A stretch of 26,615 nt of DNA from a virus. Shown here piece after piece: positions 1,697-14,920 of this stretch (its first letter is position 1; each line of letters starts with the position of its first letter). Location of the stretch: IMG/VR virus record IMGVR_UViG_3300027714_000103, positions 1-26,615 of that record. One strand, written 5' to 3'. The notes below the pieces were generated by a model, which was not told the origin of the DNA, did not search any database, and saw only the letters and a program-made list of their open reading frames with translations. A program made the position numbers and the translations under genes.

Positions 1697-2026
1697 TTAC
1701 CTCGTTACACTTGGAGTTACGATGGCTTGTCCTTCTATTACTCTTGTAGTAGTCGAACCTGTAGTTACAGTCATATCATATACGTATCTACCTGCTTCTA
1801 AAGCACCTGTTACAGTATCAGTTAAGGTTAATGAAACCTTACCTGCGTTAGCAACAATGACCGTACCAAAAGTTGCAGAAACAGCAGAAGAACTATAAGT
1901 CTTTCTCATTTGAGCAGATGCTGTATAACCAGTTAGATTTAATACATTACCCACTGCGTCTGTGACATCCACAGTAATTGTAAAATCTGTATGTTGGTCG
2001 ATGAATATGTTTGCAAGAATAGCCAT
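1697..2026 (-). CDS. Phage structural protein, BppU-N-like beta domain (109 aa)
   Basis: It begins MAILANIFIDQHTDF. The order is a 'Q-TDF' opening, LTGYTASAQMRK, a middle 'G-V-L-LT' segment, GRYVYDMTV and a closing EGQAIVTPSVTR. This pattern is typical of small phage virion proteins related to the N-terminal domain of baseplate upper proteins (BppU-type), which form a beta-sandwich and often attach fibres. There are no membrane segments and no cysteines. The start is clear from homologous-looking openings. However, there is no good Shine-Dalgarno at normal distance: a TATAAATA late-promoter box ends 5 nt before the ATG, suggesting leaderless translation. The gene is followed 4 nt later by the 77-residue fibre-type protein and then the long fibre. 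Confidence 0.75.
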   Translation of the reverse strand: MAILANIFIDQHTDFTITVDVTDAVGNVLNLTGYTASAQMRKTYSSSAVSATFGTVIVANAGKVSLTLTDTVTGALEAGRYVYDMTVTTGSTTTRVIEGQAIVTPSVTR

Positions 2027-2044: not shown

Positions 2045-3172
2045 TTATGTTTGGTACTGAGCAGATGGTACAGATTGGTGTATTTTCCTTGCTGTACCTT
2101 GGTCGTTTACATGTAGTTCTGATAATTTTTTAAGAGTTCCACCATCATTTACAAAGATACCTTTGACCTTTGCATATCTAGGTATGACTCTTGTTGTCGC
2201 ATATGTTACTTGATATGTGAACGGACTTCTATGTTGATATGAAACTTGACTTCCAGCGTTATAGAAGAATGGTGTTTGTGAGTTTCTTATATTAGGTTCT
2301 TGTCCAGCAACAGCAGACTGATAAGTAAACGGACTTCTATGTTGGTACGTAAACGGTGTCTGACTACTAGCAATGTATGGGTAAGGTAATTGTGCATTCC
2401 TAATATTAGGTTCTTGTCCAGTTGCTTGATACGTATATGTTATATCATGATTGGCTGCGACTGGAGTTCGACCAGTTCTATTATAAGTAAACGGACTTCT
2501 ATGTTGATACGTGAACGGTAACTGACCAGTATTTTGATAAGTAAATGGTGTCTGACTTACCTTTACAACATTAGTCTGAGCGTTACTAGGATTCCTATAT
2601 GTGAAAGGAGTTCTAGACTGATAGGTAGCAGGTTGCAGTCCTTGTCTTGAATACGTAAATGGACTTCTTCTATCATAAGTAAACGGACTCTGATGCTGAT
2701 ACTCGGATGGTTGTCTTGTGTCCCTAATGTTAGGTTCTTGAGCATTCACTGGACTTCTATAAGTAAATGGACTTTGATGACTGTATTCAGAAGGGTTTCT
2801 TCCTTGAGCAATGTACGGATACGGTTGTTGTTGTTGTCTAGTATCTTGATACGTCAATGGACTTCTATGATTGTATTCTGCTGGTTGTCTTGCCTCTCTT
2901 ATGTTTGGCTCTTGTGCAGATACAGGACTTCTATACGTAAACGGACTTTGATGTTGATACGTAAACGGTGTTTGTACCGTTGTTGGATGCCTGTAAATTG
3001 CAGATACTTGACCCTGTCTTGCATAAGTAGAAGGTTGTTGAGCATCCCTAATGTTTGGTTCCTGTCCAGTTGCAATGTACGGATACGGTTGCTGTGCATT
3101 TGCGATAGAAGGTGTTCTATATGAAACTATAGAAGGGTGCTGATATATGAATGGTTGTTGTCCTGTTGCCAT
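2045..3172 (-). CDS. PFTY/EPNIR repeat protein B, probable fibre or adhesin (375 aa)
   Basis: I start it at the ATG at 3172 (MATGQQPFIYQHPS), one nt after the stop of repeat protein A. A GTG at 3193 is also in frame but lies inside gene A, and the GGAGGAG ribosome binding site falls between the two. About residues 3-322 are a mosaic of short cassettes: 12 copies of PFTY, 5 of EPNIR, 3 of PYPYIA, with many YQHRSP links. Lys, Leu, Met, Cys and Trp are almost absent there. The last ~50 residues switch to a different module, KVKGIFVNDGGTLKKLSE and HVNDQGTARKIHQ. This resembles the 'VNDGGTWKK' repeats near the ends of some phage tail proteins. The location among fibre genes suggests a surface fibre. 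I know no established function for the repeat. Confidence 0.75.
   Translation of the reverse strand: MATGQQPFIYQHPSIVSYRTPSIANAQQPYPYIATGQEPNIRDAQQPSTYARQGQVSAIYRHPTTVQTPFTYQHQSPFTYRSPVSAQEPNIREARQPAEYNHRSPLTYQDTRQQQQPYPYIAQGRNPSEYSHQSPFTYRSPVNAQEPNIRDTRQPSEYQHQSPFTYDRRSPFTYSRQGLQPATYQSRTPFTYRNPSNAQTNVVKVSQTPFTYQNTGQLPFTYQHRSPFTYNRTGRTPVAANHDITYTYQATGQEPNIRNAQLPYPYIASSQTPFTYQHRSPFTYQSAVAGQEPNIRNSQTPFFYNAGSQVSYQHRSPFTYQVTYATTRVIPRYAKVKGIFVNDGGTLKKLSELHVNDQGTARKIHQSVPSAQYQT
2206..3166 (-). repeat. Mosaic PFTY / EPNIR / PYPYIA repeat tract, gene B
   Basis: Short in-frame cassettes are shuffled rather than strictly tandem. At the DNA level some copies are still identical: a 24-nt match at 2321-2344 and 2483-2506 (17 nt of it again at 2220-2236), and a 20-nt match at 2808-2827 and 3072-3091. 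Other copies of the same peptide use different synonymous codons, so old and recent duplications are mixed. Confidence 0.85.
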
Positions 3173-3173
3173 G

Positions 3174-4832
3174 TTATAAAGGAGCTCCTCCACCTTTTGC
3201 TGATACTAGTCTTACTGTTTGATTTGATGGCCCTGTTGTATACAAAGTAGTTTCACCAGTCTTGTAAACTCTTAATTGGATTTGCACTGCCGTACTCTTC
3301 GTTTCTGCATAAGGGTTTTGATTCGAACCACCAGTATTTGTAGACCATTTGAATTCGACGCCCGTTTGAGACGAACCATTCCAAACATTATGCCATGTGT
3401 TTTTAGCCTTTGCACCAGTTGGATTACTACTATCAAATGGGGCTTTAGCACTACCACCACCTGTTTCGGTTTGCTGGTCAGAACTTGAAGTCCACTTCAC
3501 ATCAATAGACCAAGTGTTATCAATTGGACTGTATACATCAATGTAGTCTTCATATGCAGGCCCTACCGCTGATGAGTCAACAGCATACCAGTTTGTTTTT
3601 ACTTTGTTGACATTACTTCCACTAGTTTGATAGTTGAATTCCATACTTGCAGCTGCTGAATTTGAAAAGCTTGACTGATACGACCTTTGTGTATCCCAAG
3701 TTCTGTTTGTTGTCCCTTGTGAATATTGTGCATTTGTATGTTGGGCTGCACTATTGCCTGGGCCCCAAGTAGTATTACCTACCCCATTATCATCTCCATC
3801 TACACCATCAAAGATGAAAGGAGTTCTTCCTACTGCTGGAGACCTTTGACTTGTAGTTGCTGGAGTCTGTACATTATATGTGAAAGGTGTTTGACCCTGT
3901 CTTGCATATGTAAATGGACTTCTGTGTTGGTACGTAAATGGTGACCTAGCATTTGCAATGTACGGATATGGTGTCTGTGACTCCGAAGGTTGCTGAGCGT
4001 CTGAGGGTTGTCTTGCGTTTCTAATGTTAGGTTCTTGACCACTCACTGGGTTTCTATATGTAAATGGAGACCTGTAATTGTACGTAAACGCTGTTTGGTT
4101 ATTCCTAATATTAGGTTCTTGAGTTGTCACTGATACAGTATAAGTAGTAGGTGTTTGACCAGTTCTCTGATACGTAAACGGTGATTGATTGTTTCTAATG
4201 TTAGGTTCTCGGCCCGACACTGGGTTTCTATAAGTGAAAGGAGACCTGTGTTGATAATCAACTAATGCTTGTGCATTCCTAATATTGGGTTCTTGACCAG
4301 CTGCGATATTAGGTTCTTGTCCAGTTGCAATATAAGGATAAGGTATTTGTGAGTTTGCAATATTTGGTTGTTGCCCACTTACTGGATTCTGATAAGTGAA
4401 CGGACTAGGATGCTGATAAAAACCCGAGGCTCTTGCCTGTGCTATATAAGGGTAAGGTTGTTGTGCATTCCTTCCATTCGGTTCTTGTCCAGTTGCAATA
4501 TAAGGATAAGGTTGTTGATGTTGATATATTGCTGGTTGTTGTCCAGTCCTAACATATGTAAACGGTGACCTATGTTGATACGCTGCTGGAGATTGTCCTT
4601 GTCTTACATAAGTACTAGGTTGTCTTGCATTTCTTATGTTAGGTTCTTGTGCAGATACAGGATTGTTGTAAATGAACGGACTTCTGTGTTGATAAGTATT
4701 TGGTTGACGTGCGTTTGCTGGAGACTGTATTGCTACCTGTCGTATATTAGGTTCTTGGGCATTTGCGGGAACTCTAGCAATATAAGGTTGCTGAATCTCC
4801 GTCGCTATATTTACAAAAGTTTCTTCAGACAT
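3174..4832 (-). CDS. PFTY/EPNIR repeat protein A with C-terminal beta domain (552 aa)
   Basis: The ATG at 4832 lies 1 nt after the TGA of the upstream fibre. Residues ~13-335 are made of the same cassettes as protein B: 8 PFTY, 6 EPNIR and 4 PYPYIA, plus variants such as QPNIA and EPNGR. From about residue 340 the repeats end at an acidic Gly/Asp turn (DGVDGDDNG, possibly metal-binding). A ~210-residue region rich in Ser, Thr, Asn, Trp and Tyr follows. It contains TWSIDVKW, WHNVWNGSS and QIQLRVYKTGE and ends in a Gly-rich KGGGAPL. It looks like a beta-sandwich tip domain. The layout of a long repetitive shaft and a unique C-terminal domain fits a fibre or adhesin. No catalytic motif was seen. 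Proteins A and B appear to share a duplicated shaft with different C-terminal ends. Confidence 0.75.
   Translation of the reverse strand: MSEETFVNIATEIQQPYIARVPANAQEPNIRQVAIQSPANARQPNTYQHRSPFIYNNPVSAQEPNIRNARQPSTYVRQGQSPAAYQHRSPFTYVRTGQQPAIYQHQQPYPYIATGQEPNGRNAQQPYPYIAQARASGFYQHPSPFTYQNPVSGQQPNIANSQIPYPYIATGQEPNIAAGQEPNIRNAQALVDYQHRSPFTYRNPVSGREPNIRNNQSPFTYQRTGQTPTTYTVSVTTQEPNIRNNQTAFTYNYRSPFTYRNPVSGQEPNIRNARQPSDAQQPSESQTPYPYIANARSPFTYQHRSPFTYARQGQTPFTYNVQTPATTSQRSPAVGRTPFIFDGVDGDDNGVGNTTWGPGNSAAQHTNAQYSQGTTNRTWDTQRSYQSSFSNSAAASMEFNYQTSGSNVNKVKTNWYAVDSSAVGPAYEDYIDVYSPIDNTWSIDVKWTSSSDQQTETGGGSAKAPFDSSNPTGAKAKNTWHNVWNGSSQTGVEFKWSTNTGGSNQNPYAETKSTAVQIQLRVYKTGETTLYTTGPSNQTVRLVSAKGGGAPL
3827..4800 (-). 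repeat. Mosaic PFTY / EPNIR / PYPYIA repeat tract, gene A
   Basis: Cassettes such as YQHRSPFTY, GQEPNIRNA, QQPYPYIATG and RNPVSGQEP recur in varying order. Every proline-to-proline distance I counted is even: 6, 8, 10, 12, 16 or 18 residues. The tract ends abruptly at the acidic turn before the C-terminal domain. Confidence 0.85.
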
Positions 4833-4833
4833 A

Positions 4834-6408
4834 TCATATCACAAACCATAGGTGTCCAACTTCGGTTCCATCCACACTACTAGGAGCCGATGACACTATT
4901 TCATAATCCAATTGTATTTTATCTGTAACAAGACTGCCTGAGTGTTTTAACCCATGGCCTGGGTCTGTTGCAAACGTTAATGCATTTCCATCACCAGTAT
5001 ATGTTTCAGTAATACCAGTACCACCCACTGTCAATGCAGCGACATCGTTATCTCCGTATGTAGGAACTCCAGTAAGTATAATTTTGTCAGCTGCATCGTC
5101 ATATGATGCAGTGATGTTTGTATGAGAACTATGATTTAATAGTCCCGACACTTTGTCTTGTGCAAATTCTTGGAAAGTTACTCCACTGAATGTTAGGTTA
5201 CCAGCAATATCTACGTTGCCACTTACATCTAATGAACCTGCGTCTAGTTCACCACTAAGTGTAACGTTTCTGAATCCAGTGATGTCTTTGTTTGCATCTA
5301 CTACGACTGTTCTATTTGCAACTATGGTTCCTTGAGTTGAACCATCATTGAAGTTTAGTTCGGTTGCAGTTGAACTTACGGTCACACCGTTAAGTGAGAA
5401 CCCATCTGTTTCAAGAATACCATCAACGTCAACGTTACCACTGATATCTAAAGAACCTGCGTCGAGTTCTCCAGTCAATGTTATATTTCTGAATCCAGTA
5501 ATGTCTTTGTTTGTATCTACTGCAACTGCTTTACTAGCAATTACAGTTCCATTTGTTAGGTCATCGATTTTTTCTAAATCTGTTTGGTCTATTCTTGCAC
5601 TTCCGATTACGAATTCACTTCCAGCAATTATGTCTGTAGATGACGTAATGTCTCCACCAGCTTGAACTGTTGAAGTCAGAACTGCAGTCGTACCACTTAG
5701 ATTACCGTTGAATACTGTTGATGTGATTGCAGTAAATCCTGTACCCACACCGCCTGTAATCGTTGCTGTTGAGTCGGTAAAGGTTGGTGCGGTGATTGTA
5801 TGTCCTGTGTCTACTGTAAGATTGCCATTAAGGAAGGTCTTACCGTATAATTCTATATCATTGGTACCTGTAAGAGTTGTTACCCTACTGGCTGCATCTG
5901 CATAGTTACCATTTATAATAACACCGTTATCGTTATGATTATAAATTGTATTTGCAGCGGTCTCTGTAAAGAAACCTATTGCAGTTCCACCTTCAGTTGA
6001 TGTACCTAAGTATGAACCTGTGAATGAGTATATGACAACCATGTCATCAACATTAACGGCTGCCGTTAAAGTGATTCTGAAATAGATATTTCCAACAACT
6101 TGAGAGATAGAGTAGTCAGCACCCTCTAATAATAGAGTAGAATTTTTGAATACTTGGAACCTATCTTGTCTTAGTCTAAGTGTATTATTAAAATCATCTA
6201 CACCTTGGAATACTGTTTGACCTGCTGTTGAGGTATAGATAAACTCTTGAAAGAAAAACGATTTGTCTTCTAGACTATTCAGAGCATCGATTACCGTTTC
6301 GGTATTCTCCGTTCTTAAGCCAGACTTATCACCAACGTCAACTGCTAATTCGTTGTACTTGGTTCTAAACTGTTCAATAGTTGAGTATGTGTCTACTGTC
6401 TTTGCCAT
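4834..6408 (-). CDS. Tail fibre protein (524 aa) with T7-fibre-like N-terminal module
   Basis: The ATG overlaps the stop of the 66-residue gene (TAATG) and has AGGGA a few nt upstream. Residues ~1-50 are helical (TIEQFRTKYNELAVDVGDKS). Residues ~53-131 carry a module seen in many fibre and baseplate proteins: FIYTSTAGQTVFQGVDD, then FQVFKNSTLLLEGADYS and DDMVVIYSF. A Gly/Thr/Asp-rich shaft follows, with two copies of a block starting 'KDITGFRN-TL-GELDAGSLD-SGNVD'. The C-terminus contains DNDVAALTVGGTGITETYTG and ends at HLWFVI. This is the usual look of a marine phage trimeric fibre or fibre adaptor. It stands between the baseplate periphery protein and the two repeat proteins, so these may form one fibre assembly. 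The receptor is unknown. Confidence 0.85.
   Translation of the reverse strand: MAKTVDTYSTIEQFRTKYNELAVDVGDKSGLRTENTETVIDALNSLEDKSFFFQEFIYTSTAGQTVFQGVDDFNNTLRLRQDRFQVFKNSTLLLEGADYSISQVVGNIYFRITLTAAVNVDDMVVIYSFTGSYLGTSTEGGTAIGFFTETAANTIYNHNDNGVIINGNYADAASRVTTLTGTNDIELYGKTFLNGNLTVDTGHTITAPTFTDSTATITGGVGTGFTAITSTVFNGNLSGTTAVLTSTVQAGGDITSSTDIIAGSEFVIGSARIDQTDLEKIDDLTNGTVIASKAVAVDTNKDITGFRNITLTGELDAGSLDISGNVDVDGILETDGFSLNGVTVSSTATELNFNDGSTQGTIVANRTVVVDANKDITGFRNVTLSGELDAGSLDVSGNVDIAGNLTFSGVTFQEFAQDKVSGLLNHSSHTNITASYDDAADKIILTGVPTYGDNDVAALTVGGTGITETYTGDGNALTFATDPGHGLKHSGSLVTDKIQLDYEIVSSAPSSVDGTEVGHLWFVI
5215..5331 (-). repeat. Internal direct repeat, copy 2 (C-proximal), in the fibre gene
   Basis: These 117 nt are a diverged, gap-free, in-frame copy of 5434-5550, offset by 219 nt (73 codons). 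It encodes 'ANKDITGFRNVTLSGELDAG' and its flanks. Many third-position differences suggest an old duplication. Confidence 0.8.
5434..5550 (-). repeat. Internal direct repeat, copy 1 (N-proximal), in the fibre gene
   Basis: Partner of 5215-5331. It encodes 'TNKDITGFRNITLTGELDAG' and its flanks. The unit is probably one beta segment of the fibre shaft. Confidence 0.8.
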
Positions 6409-6609: not shown

Positions 6610-9600
6610 TTATGCAAGTGCCATACATCTCAATGCAGTTACCGCTGGTACCACTGAGGTGTTTTGACCTTGTCCTACTATCTTAACTACGAATCCACTA
6701 AACTCGGGTAAGTTGTTTACAGTAAACTCATATTCTTTAAAGTTTCTTGCATCAGCTTCTGTTGCCACATCGGGTGCGCCAGTTGTATTGAAATATTCAA
6801 AACCGACATCATCTAGTAAAGTTTCTTCGTCATTTTTGATGATTTTATACATCAATTTAACTTCTGTTGTTGGTGGTCTAAAGACATCGCAAATAACCTT
6901 AATGGATGTTGCTGGAGTCTTGAGATTAACCTTTCTTGTTACATAGACCATTACGTTATTATCACCTTCGGACTCTGTTGATGGGACATATACTGACCCA
7001 CTTGGTAGAGAATTTGTAGTTGTATTAACTTTCTTCGAAGTTGCACTGTCTATGTTATTAATTCTGTTTGCAATACCTAAGCAACCACATGTTTGTACGT
7101 CAATCATAGGTGATATATTAGGGTTAAATGACATTAATTGTAACTGTAGGTTAAACGATTTCTGTGAGGACATGTTTAACTCTTCATTTTCGGGTGAAGC
7201 CACGATTGCTGGTGCATCCATGAAGACATTGTCATTTAATGTTACAAATTTATTTGTTAGGTTCCTTGTATATACAGTTCCATTGATACTACCTTCGGGT
7301 GAGTACTGAGGAGTTGTAAGAACGTTTGCACTAATTATAGTTCCTTTCAATTGTACTGAAGGAATCATTGTGTGTAATGCATCGAAGTAATAGTTTCTAG
7401 TTGCAGTTGCGCTACTTCCACCACCGATTGTTGAATCGAATGCATATGAAGCTGAAAAACTATAACTTGATATCGAAGGAGTGAGTCTAAATGAATCTAT
7501 TCCTCTATCTGCCATTGTACTGGCAAGATGTAGTTTATTAAGAGATGAAAGAGGACATCCACCGAGGGTGTCTTCAACTGTACCTAATACAACGGTTACT
7601 TCTGCAGTTCCAGTTCCCATGTCTGTGATGACAATACTATCACCAGTAGTGTAGTTCTGTCCACATTTTAGAATGTTTACATCTGTTACTGCACCACTTG
7701 CTACGATAACTTCAAATTTGATTCCACTACCTGTTCCACCACTATGGACATCATTTGTACAATCGATTGTTGCATCTGCTGGTAATGTTCCACTACCAGT
7801 CGTTGAAAAACTAGTTACGAGTACTGCAGAATTTTTCTTATCTGCAACAATACCTGCTAGAGTTACGTTATCTTTACTACTAGTATCATCATAGAAACCA
7901 TGTTGATATGAATATACTTTGATTTTCTTATCAGCAAAAGTTTCGATTGGGTTTAACTGTAGTTTAGTTGCTGGTATAGCATCGTTTTCAAAATTAACAT
8001 TACCTATTTTTGTAATATCATATTTTGCAACTTTCATGTTAAATTTAAGGTCGTCTGTCTGTTCTGCAGTCCAAGTGGAAGCATTCTGAGACATGAATAA
8101 TGACCCAGCATATGGTTGACCACTTATAACTTCTGCAGTCACTATGTCTGTTTCTCCCATTCTAGAAATGAAGCACTCATACTCGTTTGAGTTAGAGTAA
8201 ACAACGAAACAATATTCATTGTCTTGTTCTAAATGAACTGCTGAATCAAATGTAAATGTTGTTTTAACTGAACCATCTGCAGAGGTATTAATATCTGCTG
8301 GATTCTTAGTAACATCTGAGAATGGCATTACAATCTGGCCTGGATATCCATTGACCATGTTTCTAATTTGTACTGAACAAGGCATGAATGTATCTTTTGT
8401 TGAAAAGAACAAGTCGATTGAAGTCATGTCCATACCACCCTGTGCATCAACCAAGAATGATTGTGCAAGTGGGTCACCCCATCCTCTCATCTCTCCACCA
8501 TTCAATATTTGGATTAGAGGTCTGTCAATTGACAATCCACTGAAATCTCTTCTGTCAATAAATGGTACTGCTGGTGGCAACGGAGGCGGTGTTGGTAGAG
8601 ATATAACAGGTGGTATAAACCTAATATTTGGTATAATGTTAGGTATCAATATCGGTATTGGTATCTCGGGAATGAATATATCAATTATAACTGGTATGTT
8701 ATCAATTGGTATCTCATTGACTGGCGGTAGGTCGGGTGCAGTAGTATCATGTACTTCTGAGTTCAGTCTTTCACCTCTTCTAGAGAAATCTCTAGTTGCT
8801 GAACGGTCTTCTCTAATAACTCTACCATTTCTTGTTGAAACTACTTCTGTTTGAGACGCTTGCAATATACCTTGTGCAGTATACATTGCATTACCTTGTG
8901 AAGCAGGGTTGGCCATGTTGTAGAAACTTGAAGTTATTCTAAAGTCTCTTTGTCCTGTTGGGAATCGTTGAGTTGCATTGTTAGGCAATACAAATACTGC
9001 TCTTAGTCTACCATTACCATCTGTTTTACACTGTAGTGGTAAATTAGCTGCAAGTGTAAGGAAGTCCTCATCACTTGAACCTTCAACAAATGAATCGGGT
9101 GTTTGAGCATACGTTGAACTATAAGGTCTTACAAATTTGTTAACATTGATGTTATCAAAGTAGAAGTAATGGTTCGAATTTGGTTTTAAATTAGTTGCAT
9201 CAACTGTAATAAGTCTTGTACGGATAAATGGTATCAATGACATTGACACAATTCTATCGTTTCTTGTCTCTACAAAATCTTCAACTACACTTGTTGAAAC
9301 ACCAGTTCTTGTTTGAATTTCGGGTGTGTCTGTAAGTTCTCTACTAACCTGTAGTCCAGCAATCCATTCACCACCTTGTAGTGGGTCTCCACTCCATGAA
9401 CCATTTGAAGTTGCTTGTACTTCACTTGATACAGTAGATGGTTCTCCTGCCCATGTTGTTTGCCATGAGTTCCAAACTGTTCCTAATGCATTTGCATTAG
9501 TAGACATCAATGCATCGAAGTTACCTTCACGGTTAACTCTTACATCTGGCAGTCTGTCTGTGTCTTGCCAAATATCTGTATCGGGTGATAACTTAATGTT

Positions 9601-12600
9601 ACCAATGAATGCAAATACGTGATAAGGGTTTACGTTTATTGAACGAGATGCTTTTGTTTGATTGACATAACTAACTTCACTATATGGTAAAGTAATCATA
9701 TCACCAGTTCTTTGATAGTTAGATGATGCACCAAGATTCTGTGTGACACCGAAGAACTGAGTGAACGACTTAGGTCTTAACATACCTGTTTTAGTATCGA
9801 TAGCACAGTTATAGTCGGGATGATTTACATCACCAATCTTGTGACCTCTAAAGTTATCTACTAGGAAGCCTGACTTGTATCTATCAAATCCTTCTGCATC
9901 TAGTATCTGTTTTGTTTGTGTGTCTTTTTCTAATAAAGAAAGAGACGTAATTCTTTCAAGGTTAGTAACCCTGTTGTTTATCTTACCGATATCCTTCATG
10001 GTATATCGTCTATGGTCGAAACTTCTTACCGATATATCACTTAACTTATTGGTATAAGGTGGTATTTTCATTTCAAACATTTGAATACAATCGTCTAATG
10101 CTGTTGGCTTAGTCGGTGATAATGCTGGTGTTCCCTGTGATATTTCGAACTTACCTTTCTTATGTAAGAATACTTTATCGATTCTTCCAACATAGAATGA
10201 GATGTTACCAGTAACAGCCGAACCACTTACTGGAACGTCTACTGAGTTAGCACCTGTTGATGTAATACCAGTTCTTGCACCCAAGAATGAACGACCACTC
10301 TCATATCCAAATGGTGCATAGTATGCTCCATTCGAATTATCCGATAAATCTACTGGTGATGATGGGTCATTATCTGTTGTTCCGAAACTTGAGGTTCCAA
10401 GAATTTGTCCTACAACTGGTCTAAAGTCCAATGCATCTGAAAGTTCATATGTTCCATCGGGTTCTAATCCACCTAAATCTACTTTGTTTGGTGAGTAAAC
10501 TGGGATGTCTGAATAATCAATTGTTGAATATGAAGATACATCAAAGAAATCTCCACCACCCGATACTCTAAAGTAATCGAATACGATTAGAAGAGGCCCG
10601 TTAGGTGTTGGTTGCCCAGGCTTTAATGTTAGTTTTGATAGGTCATAATACCCATCTCTTTGACCATTGTCAAAGAAGTATCTGTCTTTAATGTCGAGTG
10701 AACCAGTTTCCAGTCCAGCTGCCAGTGGCATTGTTCCAGTTGCTAAGGATGTTTGTCCTACTACGGTTTCACTTGCAGAGAATACTTCACCATCTGTTGA
10801 TTTGTAATACCAGTATGATTTGGTACCACCACCATTTTTGATGAGACATGCTCTTGCGCCCGATGTTTGTCCAATGAATGTTTCATAGTTGACAAATGTA
10901 CCACTTGTTGTGGTTATAACTCCGTTAGGTGTGATTGGTGTTCCATCCACTCCTTCGTATACTGCAACAATCTTGTGTACGTCTGCAACACCAAATGATA
11001 TATCTTTATCATCGTATGCAGTTCCGTAATGACCATTACTACTTCTTGGTAATGATACTTTAAGACATCTTGCTTGAGATAACGTTTTACCTCTTGCAGT
11101 AGGGGATGCTACAATAACTGTGTACGTTGCATCGATTATAGCAGTATTGTTCCCACTAGGAACGGTCAATGTTAATGTTTGTGTATTTCCACTGGTTGTA
11201 ACGTTTGGTGATAGGTCTTCAATATTAATTATGTCACCAGCATTGTATCCGCCACCAATTGCTTCTCTTACTGAGATTGCAAAGTTGTCTGTAGTTCTAG
11301 AATCAAATTGTTCGCCTGCGTTAGTTACAATTTGTATACTAGTTCCACCGACTTGTTTACTTACCTGTCTTCTTACTTTTGAAGTAAGTGGAGTATGGGT
11401 CTTGACCCAATCTCTAGGGAATGAATGAATGTTTGCAGTTTGGTTTTGGTCATATAGTTTTGCACGTCTTCTGATTGCATTACCACTATATGATGTTGAA
11501 CCAACAGCTGTTAAAGTTAAACTTGTTTCTGACTGTACCGAAAGTACTTGGTTAACATTACCTGCTTGGTCTAGGAGTTTGTCCCCTTCTTTTAGTTCTT
11601 TTGCAAACTGAGTTGCAAAACCTGTAACGGTTGCTGAACCAGTTGACATTGTAACTGTTCCAGTTACGACATTGTCTAGGGTTAGTGAGATGTCTGCTTT
11701 AAATATCTCTCTTGCAACTACGTTAGGTGTTTGTAAGATTGACCTTGCACGGTCTAAGTTATAAGCTCTTATTGCAGTATTATTAGCTGCAGTAATTGTT
11801 GCAGTGTTACCTGTACCAATTGCTGTTATTGCATCTGAAGTTGTGAATACACCTTGTACATCATGCACATATAGTCCTGCTGAACTTCCACTTCCATCAA
11901 TGTGATGAACTATAGCACTTGCACCACTTACACTACCAGTGACTTTATCACCTGCTACAAATGTATTTGTTTGTGTTCCAGTAATTTTAGTGAACATCTT
12001 GATATCAAATAGATATAGATTGAATACTGCATCCGTACCATATACGTCACTTGAATCAACACCACTAACATGGTCAACGTTTCTAATTCTACATGTTCCA
12101 ATGTTTAAACCAGCAGACGCTGCTAAACCATCATGTAGTAATGCTGGATTGTGTGGGTCTATTACATCTGAACCAACTTCGTTACCGAACTCGGGTAGAC
12201 CATGAGCATTGAATACTCTTAATTTGTTTCCTAATCTAATAGGTGCTGATACACCAGTTAGGGATTCTGTTGTTCTTGCTTTTGGAATGTTTAGAGTAGT
12301 TGTTCCAACCTTATCGATTTCATATCCTCTAACATATGCCTTGCCCGGCGATACCATGAATACAAATCTTGCTTCTTCTCCACCATTATTTTTTGTGTAG
12401 AAACCTAGATTGGTTCCATCGTCTAAATGTTGTCTCATTGATGCAGTGAATTGTGAAACTACAAAGTCTCCGTTTGCATCGAATGTTCTTCTTGCAAGAG
12501 TATTTTCTATCTCTGCATATTTTGTTTTGTCTATTTTAAGTGTGATGACACCTGCGTTAACTCTTGATAGTTCAACGAAGGATGTTCCCAATACTGAATC

Positions 12601-13407
12601 TAAAGTGTGTTTACCTAATGTTAGATTGAATTGTAAACGGTCAGCACCAACTGCGTTTTCGTTTGTTGTTCCCGAGGCGTTATCTTCTAGAGATGTATCA
12701 TTAGATGATGTTACTAATGTTTCAACAATGTCTAAACCCACTCTGAAAGAAGGTGAACCATTGTATTTTTCTAACATTAATGTTTGTTTTGCAACCTTGA
12801 CAAAGAACCCTCTTACGAATACAATACCTTCTGATATTTCTGCAAGAGATGCTCTACCAGTTGGGGACTCTGATTTAGGTTGGACTTCGAAATCATTGTT
12901 CGATGCTGAATCAGCAGTAACAGTACCATTTGCATCATAACCAACTAACTCTAATGTTTCTGTTGCAGAGAACATGAAGTCGGCACTAGCATTAGTACCT
13001 TGTTGAACTGGTCTAACAAATAATGTTAGTTTATCTGCAGTAGTTTCTGCAGTAGATGTTACAACTTTTGCAACGACACCAGTAGTTTGACCTCTTACAT
13101 ACTTCTCATGAAATGATTCTCTGTATGTTTCTACTGAAGTGTCACCCGCTGAATTTGGGTTTGCAGCTTTTACTTTAACAAAGTAGATATCCATATCGAT
13201 GTTCGTTTGAGCACCTTGGATAATTGTTCCCTCTTCGAAGAAATGGTCACCCATTCTTTCAATTTGGTTTTGCAATATAGATTGAGACTGAGTTAACTCC
13301 CTTGCTTGCAGAGGACGGCCCGCACGATAAAGAACTTTATGGAACTTTTTATCTTCGGAAAAATCGTCGTAATAAGGTGTTATATTTAAGTCTGTCTTCT
13401 CTGCCAT
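6610..13407 (-). CDS. Giant baseplate periphery protein, DUF4815-like N-terminus (2265 aa)
   Basis: The ATG at 13407 has AAGG 10 nt upstream. The N-terminus (LNITPYYDDFSEDKKFHKVL, then RPLQARELTQSQSILQNQIE) is the DUF4815-type opening of large virion proteins in T4-like marine phages, encoded where T4 has gene 10. Long beta-rich stretches follow. Residues ~1559-1616 form an Ile/Pro tract (IPEIPIPILIPNIIPN, then TPPPLPPAVPF). Next come GWGDPLAQSFLVD and DLFFSTKDTFMP, typical of the C-terminal half of this family. The end (about residues 2100-2265) has NVMVYVTRKVNLKTPATS and FVVKIVGQGQNTS. T4 gp10 is 602 residues, so this is far larger and may also replace gp9/gp11/gp12 functions by carrying fibres. 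Being a virion protein is certain by context; equivalence to gp10 is inferred. Confidence 0.85.
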   Translation of the reverse strand: MAEKTDLNITPYYDDFSEDKKFHKVLYRAGRPLQARELTQSQSILQNQIERMGDHFFEEGTIIQGAQTNIDMDIYFVKVKAANPNSAGDTSVETYRESFHEKYVRGQTTGVVAKVVTSTAETTADKLTLFVRPVQQGTNASADFMFSATETLELVGYDANGTVTADSASNNDFEVQPKSESPTGRASLAEISEGIVFVRGFFVKVAKQTLMLEKYNGSPSFRVGLDIVETLVTSSNDTSLEDNASGTTNENAVGADRLQFNLTLGKHTLDSVLGTSFVELSRVNAGVITLKIDKTKYAEIENTLARRTFDANGDFVVSQFTASMRQHLDDGTNLGFYTKNNGGEEARFVFMVSPGKAYVRGYEIDKVGTTTLNIPKARTTESLTGVSAPIRLGNKLRVFNAHGLPEFGNEVGSDVIDPHNPALLHDGLAASAGLNIGTCRIRNVDHVSGVDSSDVYGTDAVFNLYLFDIKMFTKITGTQTNTFVAGDKVTGSVSGASAIVHHIDGSGSSAGLYVHDVQGVFTTSDAITAIGTGNTATITAANNTAIRAYNLDRARSILQTPNVVAREIFKADISLTLDNVVTGTVTMSTGSATVTGFATQFAKELKEGDKLLDQAGNVNQVLSVQSETSLTLTAVGSTSYSGNAIRRRAKLYDQNQTANIHSFPRDWVKTHTPLTSKVRRQVSKQVGGTSIQIVTNAGEQFDSRTTDNFAISVREAIGGGYNAGDIINIEDLSPNVTTSGNTQTLTLTVPSGNNTAIIDATYTVIVASPTARGKTLSQARCLKVSLPRSSNGHYGTAYDDKDISFGVADVHKIVAVYEGVDGTPITPNGVITTTSGTFVNYETFIGQTSGARACLIKNGGGTKSYWYYKSTDGEVFSASETVVGQTSLATGTMPLAAGLETGSLDIKDRYFFDNGQRDGYYDLSKLTLKPGQPTPNGPLLIVFDYFRVSGGGDFFDVSSYSTIDYSDIPVYSPNKVDLGGLEPDGTYELSDALDFRPVVGQILGTSSFGTTDNDPSSPVDLSDNSNGAYYAPFGYESGRSFLGARTGITSTGANSVDVPVSGSAVTGNISFYVGRIDKVFLHKKGKFEISQGTPALSPTKPTALDDCIQMFEMKIPPYTNKLSDISVRSFDHRRYTMKDIGKINNRVTNLERITSLSLLEKDTQTKQILDAEGFDRYKSGFLVDNFRGHKIGDVNHPDYNCAIDTKTGMLRPKSFTQFFGVTQNLGASSNYQRTGDMITLPYSEVSYVNQTKASRSINVNPYHVFAFIGNIKLSPDTDIWQDTDRLPDVRVNREGNFDALMSTNANALGTVWNSWQTTWAGEPSTVSSEVQATSNGSWSGDPLQGGEWIAGLQVSRELTDTPEIQTRTGVSTSVVEDFVETRNDRIVSMSLIPFIRTRLITVDATNLKPNSNHYFYFDNINVNKFVRPYSSTYAQTPDSFVEGSSDEDFLTLAANLPLQCKTDGNGRLRAVFVLPNNATQRFPTGQRDFRITSSFYNMANPASQGNAMYTAQGILQASQTEVVSTRNGRVIREDRSATRDFSRRGERLNSEVHDTTAPDLPPVNEIPIDNIPVIIDIFIPEIPIPILIPNIIPNIRFIPPVISLPTPPPLPPAVPFIDRRDFSGLSIDRPLIQILNGGEMRGWGDPLAQSFLVDAQGGMDMTSIDLFFSTKDTFMPCSVQIRNMVNGYPGQIVMPFSDVTKNPADINTSADGSVKTTFTFDSAVHLEQDNEYCFVVYSNSNEYECFISRMGETDIVTAEVISGQPYAGSLFMSQNASTWTAEQTDDLKFNMKVAKYDITKIGNVNFENDAIPATKLQLNPIETFADKKIKVYSYQHGFYDDTSSKDNVTLAGIVADKKNSAVLVTSFSTTGSGTLPADATIDCTNDVHSGGTGSGIKFEVIVASGAVTDVNILKCGQNYTTGDSIVITDMGTGTAEVTVVLGTVEDTLGGCPLSSLNKLHLASTMADRGIDSFRLTPSISSYSFSASYAFDSTIGGGSSATATRNYYFDALHTMIPSVQLKGTIISANVLTTPQYSPEGSINGTVYTRNLTNKFVTLNDNVFMDAPAIVASPENEELNMSSQKSFNLQLQLMSFNPNISPMIDVQTCGCLGIANRINNIDSATSKKVNTTTNSLPSGSVYVPSTESEGDNNVMVYVTRKVNLKTPATSIKVICDVFRPPTTEVKLMYKIIKNDEETLLDDVGFEYFNTTGAPDVATEADARNFKEYEFTVNNLPEFSGFVVKIVGQGQNTSVVPAVTALRCMALA

Positions 13408-13426: not shown

Positions 13427-13461
13427 AAATGTAAAGGGGATTACTCCCCAGTATTACATTT
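13427..13461 (-). terminator. Stem-loop between gp8 and the giant gene (terminator-like)
   Basis: The outer arms AAATGTAA/TTACATTT (8 bp) and inner arms GGGGA/TCCCC (5 bp) close a GTAA loop of GNRA type. The two stems are separated by a small asymmetric internal loop. The outer arm includes the gp8 stop codon (13454-13456). Downstream on the minus strand the 3' side reads TTTACATTTTATAC, a broken T-run. It could be a weak terminator, an RNase processing site or a 3' stabiliser separating gp8 from the 2265-residue gene. Confidence 0.5.
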
Positions 13462-14920
13462 CAATAATTAATTTAATATCTTCTATTTGGTCTGCAGCCC
13501 TTGAAACAGCACCACGATTCTCAATGTACATGATGTTGCCAGAGTAATGTTCTACTTCGGGATGTGCAGCAGATACTGCTGAGACGGTACCAATGTTTGC
13601 ACCAGCCTTATAGACTACGTCAGCATTGGCGAAGTTGAAATACCCACCTTCTGAGTTTGCAACTGGAATGTGAGATACCACTGTACCGTTTATAGAAACG
13701 ATTCTTGATACTGCAGTTCCTGCTACATCTGAGCTTGAATCTGTGATAAGGTCATCGGGAGATAGACCTGTAACACTTGATAGTGTCATCTGAGAATAAG
13801 CAGTCATTGAAGTGTCTGAACCTATAATAGTTGTACCATTTTTGAATGGGTCTTGCACCAATCCAATTCTTCTAAAGTCGTTATCTGTTGGGAAGTCTCC
13901 ACCACCTTCACCGAACTCAAATCTAGAGTTGATGATTATGTAGTTTCCACCTAATTCTTCTACTGGGTCTGCACCGTGTCCAATGATTGGTGATACGATT
14001 ACCTTAATGACGCCTGATGAACCACCACCGATTCCACTGATACCAGCAACATCGATAGTTGCACGTCTGTATCCCGAACCTACAGTTGTTACTGTTGCAT
14101 GTGTGATTGCTCCACTTGATACGTGTACTGAAACTTTACCTAGTGAACCATCTCCGTCGATTGCAACATTTGCGTATGTACCATCTGTATAACCCGAACC
14201 TGCTGAAGTTACAACGGCATGATTTGCTCCACCGTCTACTGCATCTTTTTCAACATCGTACTGTGCTGTAGAATCATCTGTTGCTACAGTTCCTAATGCA
14301 CCGTTAGTACCAGTACCGTAAATCTCTGATTGAGCTCCGATTGTTTTAACTGGGATAAAGTCATTAGTTACGAATTTGATTACGTCTGAAGCAGAGATTG
14401 AGTACATATATTTCCATACATATCCTCTACCTGTTCCTGCGCCTGAATCTGCAAGTGTTAATAAGGTTGTTGAAGATGTACCAGTAGGTTTGACGCTTGA
14501 GGCAACAACAGCACCATCTGAATCTCTACCAGTTCTTATACATTTGTATACGTTGTACTCTTCTGTCATCACATAAAATCTAGAATCGTAAATATTTGAG
14601 GCACTAGTTGCAGTGGATGTGTTTGTTGCACTTACATCATGCTGATATTCGTCATAGGTTGTGTTAGTAGTCCAGTTATATCTGACTAAACCATGAGTTA
14701 CGTCTGAATTAGGCACCTTCTTAAGTGCAATCATGTCTGACCATGCGTCTAACTCTTCACCAACTGAGTTTGCTGGTGCAGTAGGAACTGCATCGTTCGG
14801 CCAAGCAAATGACCTTCCTATGAATATGTATGTTGAAGAAGCTGTTTCTGCTGATGAGAAGTCTTCTTTGAATTGTTTCGCATTATGTGTACGAAACTTC
14901 TCTGTAATTATAGCTGCCAT
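13454..14920 (-). CDS. gp8: Baseplate wedge protein gp8 (488 aa)
   Basis: It begins MAAIITEKFRTHNAKQFKED, continues with TYIFIGRSFAWPND and has NVYKCIRT near residue 124 and GRGYVWKYMYSISASDVIKF at ~164-183. These are the features I expect of gp8 in T4-like phages, where the dimeric protein sits on the outside of each wedge and contacts gp7, gp10 and gp6. T4 gp8 is 334 residues. The extra length here comes mainly from Gly/Ser-rich inserts such as HAVVTSAGSGYTDGTYANV, which recurs in related form as HATVTTVGSGYRRATIDVAG. The ribosome binding site GGGAG is 10 nt before the ATG, in a leader that starts at two late-promoter boxes. It is the first gene of its transcription unit. Confidence 0.85.
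   Translation of the reverse strand: MAAIITEKFRTHNAKQFKEDFSSAETASSTYIFIGRSFAWPNDAVPTAPANSVGEELDAWSDMIALKKVPNSDVTHGLVRYNWTTNTTYDEYQHDVSATNTSTATSASNIYDSRFYVMTEEYNVYKCIRTGRDSDGAVVASSVKPTGTSSTTLLTLADSGAGTGRGYVWKYMYSISASDVIKFVTNDFIPVKTIGAQSEIYGTGTNGALGTVATDDSTAQYDVEKDAVDGGANHAVVTSAGSGYTDGTYANVAIDGDGSLGKVSVHVSSGAITHATVTTVGSGYRRATIDVAGISGIGGGSSGVIKVIVSPIIGHGADPVEELGGNYIIINSRFEFGEGGGDFPTDNDFRRIGLVQDPFKNGTTIIGSDTSMTAYSQMTLSSVTGLSPDDLITDSSSDVAGTAVSRIVSINGTVVSHIPVANSEGGYFNFANADVVYKAGANIGTVSAVSAAHPEVEHYSGNIMYIENRGAVSRAADQIEDIKLIIEM

Follow-up and report, generated by a model that had tools for sequence, protein, structure and literature searches.

Mirrored, proline-phased tracts in two neighbouring genes of a T4-like virus as candidate antiparallel partners in a tail-fibre shaft

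The triple-stranded beta-helix shafts of phage T4 gp5 and of VgrG-like proteins are built from octapeptide repeats of one protein, whose three chains run parallel and whose repeat length is constant. Silk fibroin, likewise one protein, has a two-residue repeat (Gly-X dyads), words of even length and an extended beta sheet. Alpha and beta spectrin are two different long repeat proteins that lie antiparallel side by side and consist of helical repeats of constant length. Here we analyse two neighbouring genes, A and B, in a stretch of viral DNA of 26,615 nucleotides (IMG/VR record IMGVR_UViG_3300027714_000103, positions 1 to 26,615; hereafter "the window"), which carries a T4-like baseplate operon. 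Most of each protein is a tract of short words that carry proline. At the level of sequence we demonstrate in these tracts and their relatives a proline parity rule, a matching of lengths, an antiparallel register, a complementarity of facing words and a fused type of gene that is complementary to itself. On this basis we consider it likely that a T4-like myovirus builds one long tail-fibre shaft from two different chains, A and B, which run antiparallel along their full length.

A and B are both encoded on the minus strand, a detail absent from the initial annotation of this DNA, and comprise the following parts:

3174..4832, minus strand: gene A (gene 1 of the pair), 552 amino acids, with a short head, a proline-parity tract and a C-terminal non-repeat domain
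4788..4832, minus strand: N-terminal head of A, MSEETFVNIATEIQQ; A-type relatives are alike (M-S/A-D/E-E-I-F/Y-V/I-N ... QQPY)
3819..4787, minus strand: tract of A, residues 16-338, with 44 Pro of a single parity and words chiefly of 6, 8 and 10 residues
3174..3812, minus strand: C-terminal domain of A, residues 341-552, a putative distal receptor-binding tip
2045..3172, minus strand: gene B (gene 2 of the pair), 375 amino acids, with its ATG at 3172
2222..3154, minus strand: tract of B, residues 7-317, with 38 Pro of a single parity, the putative antiparallel partner of the A tract
2045..2205, minus strand: C-terminal module of B, ending in AKVKGIFVNDGGTLKKLSELHVNDQGTARKIH, a putative proximal anchor with a weak match to PHROG 13729 (E 1.7e-5), a family of unknown function

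The sequence GGTGGAGGAG immediately upstream of the start of B falls within the end of A. By eye, the pattern DNTWSIDVKW...NTWHNVWNGSS...KTGETTLYT of the C-terminal domain of A is seen again in relatives.

According to the initial annotation all Pro-Pro intervals in the two proteins are even, and this is confirmed by our counts, in which none of the 43 intervals in A and none of the 37 in B is odd. Its range of 6 to 18 residues is correct as to evenness and incomplete as a list, since steps of two residues (in the word YPY) are also present, five times in A and three times in B; its example of a 16-residue interval, PNIRNAQALVDYQHRSP, was found in A. Tyrosine three residues behind the proline (Pro+3), which had been ascribed to most units, follows 23 of 39 Pro in B and no more than 18 of 45 in A (the tract as counted here includes one extra C-terminal Pro per protein). 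It marks only about half of the words because the remaining half belongs to a second, non-aromatic class. Tyr is itself locked in parity (0/27 exceptions in A and 0/32 in B), lying wholly on the parity opposite to that of Pro, and Phe, Gly, Ala, Ile and Gln are strongly skewed in parity in the window tracts.

Nine relatives were found from A, and the rest came from three pattern scans of IMG/VR that used words of the tracts; the totals given here are lower bounds. At least 93 unique complete pairs of neighbouring tract genes were assembled, pairs truncated by the end of a locus being excluded and a stop-broken gene (locus L108) being counted as two pairs; they form 66 clusters at 80% identity. 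Two main classes of pair exist, the A/B class of the window (21/66 clusters) and a C/D class (38/66), in which gene 1 has an N-terminal QKVKTPTGW module and gene 2 a WPATPITS-like end, while 7/66 belong to neither. Across relatives one can recognise both the gene 1 head and the C-terminal module of gene 2.

With tracts defined blind to parity, 234 of 4979 Pro intervals are odd in the 132 proteins of the 66 clusters; trimming three intervals at each end leaves 30 odd ones among 4187. By comparison, 1499 of 3187 intervals are odd in control open reading frames (ORFs) of the same loci, taken from a mechanical list of the remaining stop-to-stop ORFs in six frames (>=200 amino acids; intervals up to 18 residues). 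Odd intervals in homologues, proposed beforehand as the observation by which the rule should be judged, are therefore rare among the inner intervals, and the suggested restriction of indels to steps of two residues is real and general across the 66 clusters. Indeed, the parity rule persists through wide divergence and very different sets of words. The intervals run from 2 residues upwards, those of 6, 8 and 10 dominating and mixing freely, with 2, 4 and 12 in addition. Alternating faces are the natural reading of such a two-residue step rule.

The tract genes occur in pairs. A neighbouring partner on the same strand was found for 178 of the 188 complete tract genes with enough flank, and the ten without one include three fused forms (L040, L063 and L274, treated below) and one gene that resembles such a form (L284). 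The tract lengths of neighbours correlate closely in the 64 complete pairs (Spearman 0.93), with a median difference of 8 residues compared to about 90 after permutation, and the correlation is 0.90 over all 66 clusters. Some of these matches are lowered because the tract finder cuts at rare odd intervals or at long gaps (L036, L037, L084 and L097, whose rows were retained in both the 64 and the 66). Similarly, changes in length between related clusters go together in the two genes (Spearman 0.98, 219 comparisons); they have the same sign in 200 of 208 cases and are exactly equal in 29 of 208, for example +36/+36, -156/-156 and +74/+74. This test was first made without the 5/66 clusters whose tracts differ by more than 60 residues, and a rerun on all 66 gave the same 219 comparisons and the same result.

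Aligned antiparallel, with residue r of A opposite residue 345-r of B, the two tracts of the window bring 32 of the 38 Pro of the B tract to face a Pro of A. Among 2000 shuffles of the order of the B units the maximum was 24 and the mean 16.5, and the best parallel alignment reached 18. Summed over 56 of the 64 pairs (8 were dropped for a tract difference above 30 or a tract below 160 residues), Pro-Pro coincidences number 1583 at offset 0, a position set by the tract ends, against a mean of 550 at even offsets (standard deviation 214); the next-best antiparallel offset, -8, gives 1147 and the parallel maximum is 705. Examples from single pairs are L018 with 56 of 60, L093 with 70 of 73 and L051 with 61 of 65. 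The antiparallel arrangement scores above the parallel one in 66/66 clusters. Since the antiparallel prediction was recorded before the second and third pattern scans, the 15 clusters new thereafter are held out from it; there antiparallel exceeds parallel in 15/15, and the share of Pro in the smaller partner that lies opposite a Pro has a median of 85%. Shuffles of unit order give z>3 in 65/66 clusters, and in 62 the observed value was never reached.

Cognate partners match better than non-cognate ones. On average a fraction of 0.79 of the Pro faces a Pro in cognate pairs, compared to 0.48 in non-cognate, length-matched ones (standard deviation 0.09, n=524, maximum 0.91). Two contigs, matched by hand, that each carry two distinct pairs provide a control within the same contig, where cognate combinations give 0.66, 0.94, 0.87 and 0.92 and cross combinations 0.37, 0.47, 0.48 and 0.65. 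A self-mirror of single proteins was rejected as a trivial cause, the best self-antiparallel fraction having a median of 0.50 (173 ORFs), which is close to the non-cognate level.

In this register facing words are of opposite class, a word such as PFTYQHRSP lying opposite one of the EPNIRNAQ type. Of 1663 facing units, 1522 have an aromatic residue at Pro+3 on exactly one side, where 845 are expected; in the held-out clusters 339 of 365 do so (182 expected), and for the window the count is 21 of 23, with 12 expected. Sorted by length, the figures are 448/528 for units of 6 residues, 828/870 for those of 8 and 246/265 for those of 10, and each length has its own partners. Among 8-residue units, xTY is opposite xI[RAK] in 762/870 and two xTY meet in 8 (189 expected), PFTYQHRS facing PNIRNAQ(E/Q/T). 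With 6 residues, xTY is opposite xSA in 368/528 and xTY-xTY occurs 8 times (86 expected), as PFTYRN faces PVSAQE. In the 10-residue class, where PFTYQRTGQT faces PYPYIANAQ(E/Q), xTY is opposite YPYIA in 224/265 and xTY-xTY occurs 11 times (52 expected). Among the residue pairs in excess at offset 0 are Pro-Pro, Tyr-Ala, Tyr-Gly, Phe-Gln/Glu and His-Arg. As every word is complemented by one of equal length, B can be described as a word-level "reverse complement" of A.

In five natural fused genes one chain combines an N-terminal head of the gene 1 type with a C-terminal module of the gene 2 type. For two of them, L082 and L063 (86% identical), the best of all sums belongs to the register that the ends define, with 18 Pro pairs and 13 of 14 units complementary; as far as their sequences tell, these chains are self-complementary. 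In a further one, L046, the best sum, 573, links the first Pro of the tract with the Pro of the RPIG motif (by our own count, the automatic anchor having chosen another Pro).

By the same sequence criteria, A and B are partners, matched in length and complementary in reverse order, and not two copies of one shaft repeat. The extended-strand fibre shaft of the initial annotation thus keeps its step rule and its likely role as a shaft, while the partnership of the two proteins had been missed. In the arrangement that we propose, the tracts would lie side by side and antiparallel in the register given above, as extended beta strands that form a beta-ribbon, a geometry that we infer. In an antiparallel strand pair the NH of every second residue points outward, and a Pro would fit only there. 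Restriction of Pro to these positions would lead to a single parity in both chains and to inserted words of even length, each to be answered by an equally long one in the partner. Tyr and Phe would then lie on one face, where they would probably bundle several ribbons, perhaps as a trimer of heterodimers. The N-terminus of gene 1 and the C-terminus of gene 2 would meet at the phage end, and the variable C-terminal domain of gene 1, at the opposite end, would be the receptor-binding tip. We also lean, with less assurance than for the shaft itself, towards a wider reading, namely that words of three lengths and two classes form a natural, modular pairing code that determines the antiparallel partner of a chain over about 160-525 residues. 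Many phages would have two-chain zipped fibres, gene 2 would evolve as the reverse complement of gene 1 by means of matched indels, and two fibres of one phage would be kept separate by their word order.

Other explanations account for parts of these data. Each protein, alone or as a homotrimer, could form a beta-solenoid or beta-helix with rungs of about 18 residues (8+10), in which case the two shafts would dock only as wholes and the matching of words would reflect rung-to-rung docking of antiparallel solenoids. The autocorrelation of the tracts, with peaks at 8, 18 and 28 residues, would fit such rungs, and so would one AlphaFold2 result: an exact 18-residue array in gene 1 of L069 (residues ~55-125) was drawn solenoid-like, with short strands every 8-10 residues and a block-mean predicted local distance difference test (pLDDT) score of ~67-79. 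Perfect tandem repeats, however, draw solenoids from AlphaFold2, confidence is low outside the exact array, and the constant rung length that a solenoid calls for is at odds with words of different length that mix freely; we therefore regard this explanation as improbable. The usual phage fibre is a parallel homotrimer, and A and B might be two independent fibres of this classical kind, equally long as both span the same distance from the baseplate. This would suit the length matching alone and predicts neither the mirrored order of words nor the complementary classes of facing words nor the self-complementary fused genes, so that we give it very little weight.

Finally, since similar words are found in both genes of the window, the pattern might be an artefact of repeat copying, the even words having spread by duplication and the mirror having come from copying between the genes at the DNA level. 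Copying, however, would yield the same words in the same order, whereas the order is reversed and the class opposite. An inverted-repeat search of the window (>=16 nucleotides) returned one 18-nucleotide pair (83%) with both arms in A and none between the genes, and non-cognate pairs made of the same words match far less well. We find this last explanation scarcely credible.

A number of observations weigh against an antiparallel two-chain ribbon. Besides drawing the solenoid-like array just mentioned, AlphaFold2 built no ribbon either for the read-through pair of L069 (mean pLDDT 33.9) or for the natural fused chain of L082 (mean pLDDT 31.4), with alignments of 3 and 5 sequences for the two targets; disorder of the tracts may be compatible with such very-low-confidence single-chain models. 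One cluster, L097, is not significant in the register test (z 1.5), the best offset lies more than 6 residues off the tract ends in 12/66 clusters, and parallel alignments also reach z>3 in 19/66, which we attribute to periodic arrays. The mutual information of facing residues peaks at offset -2 and not at 0 (54/66 clusters; the 12/66 with a fraction <0.7 were left out of the facing-residue analysis), so that the exact residue register is uncertain by about 2. As for lengths, 5/66 clusters exceed a difference of 60 residues as the tract finder defines tracts, and the gene 2 tract of L022 is 44 residues shorter than that of L125 at equal gene 1 tracts. The word code, too, has exceptions: by the Pro+3 rule 46 of 528 six-residue units have an aromatic on both sides, and non-cognate combinations show some excess of opposite classes (3333/5421, 2804 expected). 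Among the fused genes, the matching sum ranks second in L040 and is weak in L274, the end-set register being first in neither. The sample is biased as well, most loci having been gathered by word patterns and the 80% clusters being still mutually related, and tblastn found no relative with such tracts among cultured phages.

The assignment to a tail fibre draws on the surroundings of the pair, which contain these further genes:

6610..13407, minus strand: VrlC/DUF4815 protein (PF16075), upstream of the fibre genes
13454..14920, minus strand: baseplate wedge gp8 (Pfam PF09215), a context gene
4834..6408, minus strand: gene between DUF4815 and A, matching PHROG 30158 (E 7e-11), function unknown
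1697..2026, minus strand: small gene directly after B, best match PHROG 1084 (E 6e-25), function unknown

The second-best match of the small gene is phrog_3304, "L-shaped tail fiber protein assembly" (E 3e-20), and the gene at 4834-6408 is taken as fibre-like from its position. A and B are situated downstream of VrlC/DUF4815 in the baseplate-fibre operon, with one gene intervening. A study of pelagimyophages (PMC7029224) describes a host recognition cluster with tail fibres in the region after VrlC; A and B occupy the corresponding position, and a role as fibre shaft is likely for this reason. The same place after gp8 and VrlC/DUF4815, near a gene of the L-shaped-tail-fibre-assembly type, is held by the tail-fibre module of marine T4-like myoviruses (pelagimyophages and cyanomyophages). 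Among cultured phages the DUF4815 protein is best matched in Methylophilales phage Melnitz-3 (38% identity over 92%). Judged by the closest cultured relatives of this protein and of gp8, the viruses are probably marine. No comparable tract was found in 40-50 kb stretches of the five reference records HTVC008M, Melnitz-3, AG-345-P14, P-SSM2 and S-SSM5. In one of these, Pelagibacter phage HTVC008M, the curli genes CsgF, CsgG and CsgB are annotated in the phage genome (L204:7562-9557).

Database searches returned little. No Pfam, PHROG or NCBIfam family was found for the tract of A or B at E 0.001, the NCBIfam match to A being at chance level (E 0.096); the C-terminal piece of A (3174-3806) had no Pfam match, and the whole of A no PHROG or PDB sequence match. 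A PDB sequence search with B gave a single weak match, mFAP1 (E 0.036). By tblastn against 50,697 phage records A had no match and B one weak match, in Agrobacterium phage Rivra (E 0.6); the C-terminal module of B had none among cultured phages, nor did a DNA search of 2045-6408 against phages return any. For the two anchor modules, the N-terminal one of type C and the C-terminal one of type B, all PDB profile matches were weak (best E 0.96 and 0.019), and the values for homology between these modules fall short of a claim (BLASTP E 0.001 in a single comparison, hhalign probability 18.5%). The pattern QPYPYIA occurs at 67 loci of genome contigs with one match apiece, and same-parity Pro runs of at least 10 in genome contigs amounted to two, both GC-rich chance runs (L177). 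Matches of L059 by tblastn to Vibrio phage F23s1 and Bordetella phage BIP-1 were discarded as simple DNA repeats whose frames, by eye, are unlike the words. Bordetella phage BIP-1 VR2 has a distinct 8-residue tract, GTATAGES/GTATAGNY, in one frame (L136:2999-3472), with unrelated words. In a literature search of open-licence PMC papers, such tracts or mirrored neighbouring fibre genes were not described.

Some relatives show features of their own. Gene 1 proteins of type C may end in a Hint/intein-like domain behind the tract: L059:1024-2985 matches Pfam Intein_splicing (E 2e-6) and L068:164-2425 Hint (E 3e-6), both under the curated cut-offs, and by eye such an end is also seen in L010, L025, L033, L066, L075, L083, L090 and L119, among others. 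A self-processing fibre tip would be unusual. In L108, tract ORFs on the reverse strand at 5724, 6585 and 7485 suggest a gene 1 split by one stop, its halves having tracts of 231 and 289 residues, together near the 501 of the partner. A single phage contig can hold two such pairs that differ in length and word order, as in L075, and in L014 and L042 (one contig each).

If the pairing code is real, proteins would here specify their partners in a new way, through word order read in reverse, as nucleic acids do. The code would account for the ability of so long an extended shaft not to bind itself or a wrong partner, and it would supply complementary peptide words that can be tested as designable zippers. 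It would also pose an evolutionary puzzle, as every insertion in one of the genes must be balanced by an equivalent insertion at the mirror position of its partner.

Among described shafts, the triple-stranded beta-helix resembles A and B in its 8-residue words, its phage tail context and its beta-rich nature (as proposed here for A and B), but the present tracts mix lengths of 6, 8 and 10 and occur in two proteins that mirror one another. The initial annotation stated that no described fold has the even-step rule, a statement to be qualified by the two-residue repeat of silk fibroin. There, too, a type of residue is locked to one parity. Glycine at every second residue, however, is not found in A and B (18 Gly in the A tract and 9 in the B tract), and silk fibroin has neither a partner protein nor complementary words. 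Spectrin has the antiparallel pairing of two different chains in common with A and B, but not a modular word code. Silk fibroin for the parity and spectrin for the antiparallel hetero-pairing are the nearest ideas, and the word code is found in neither.

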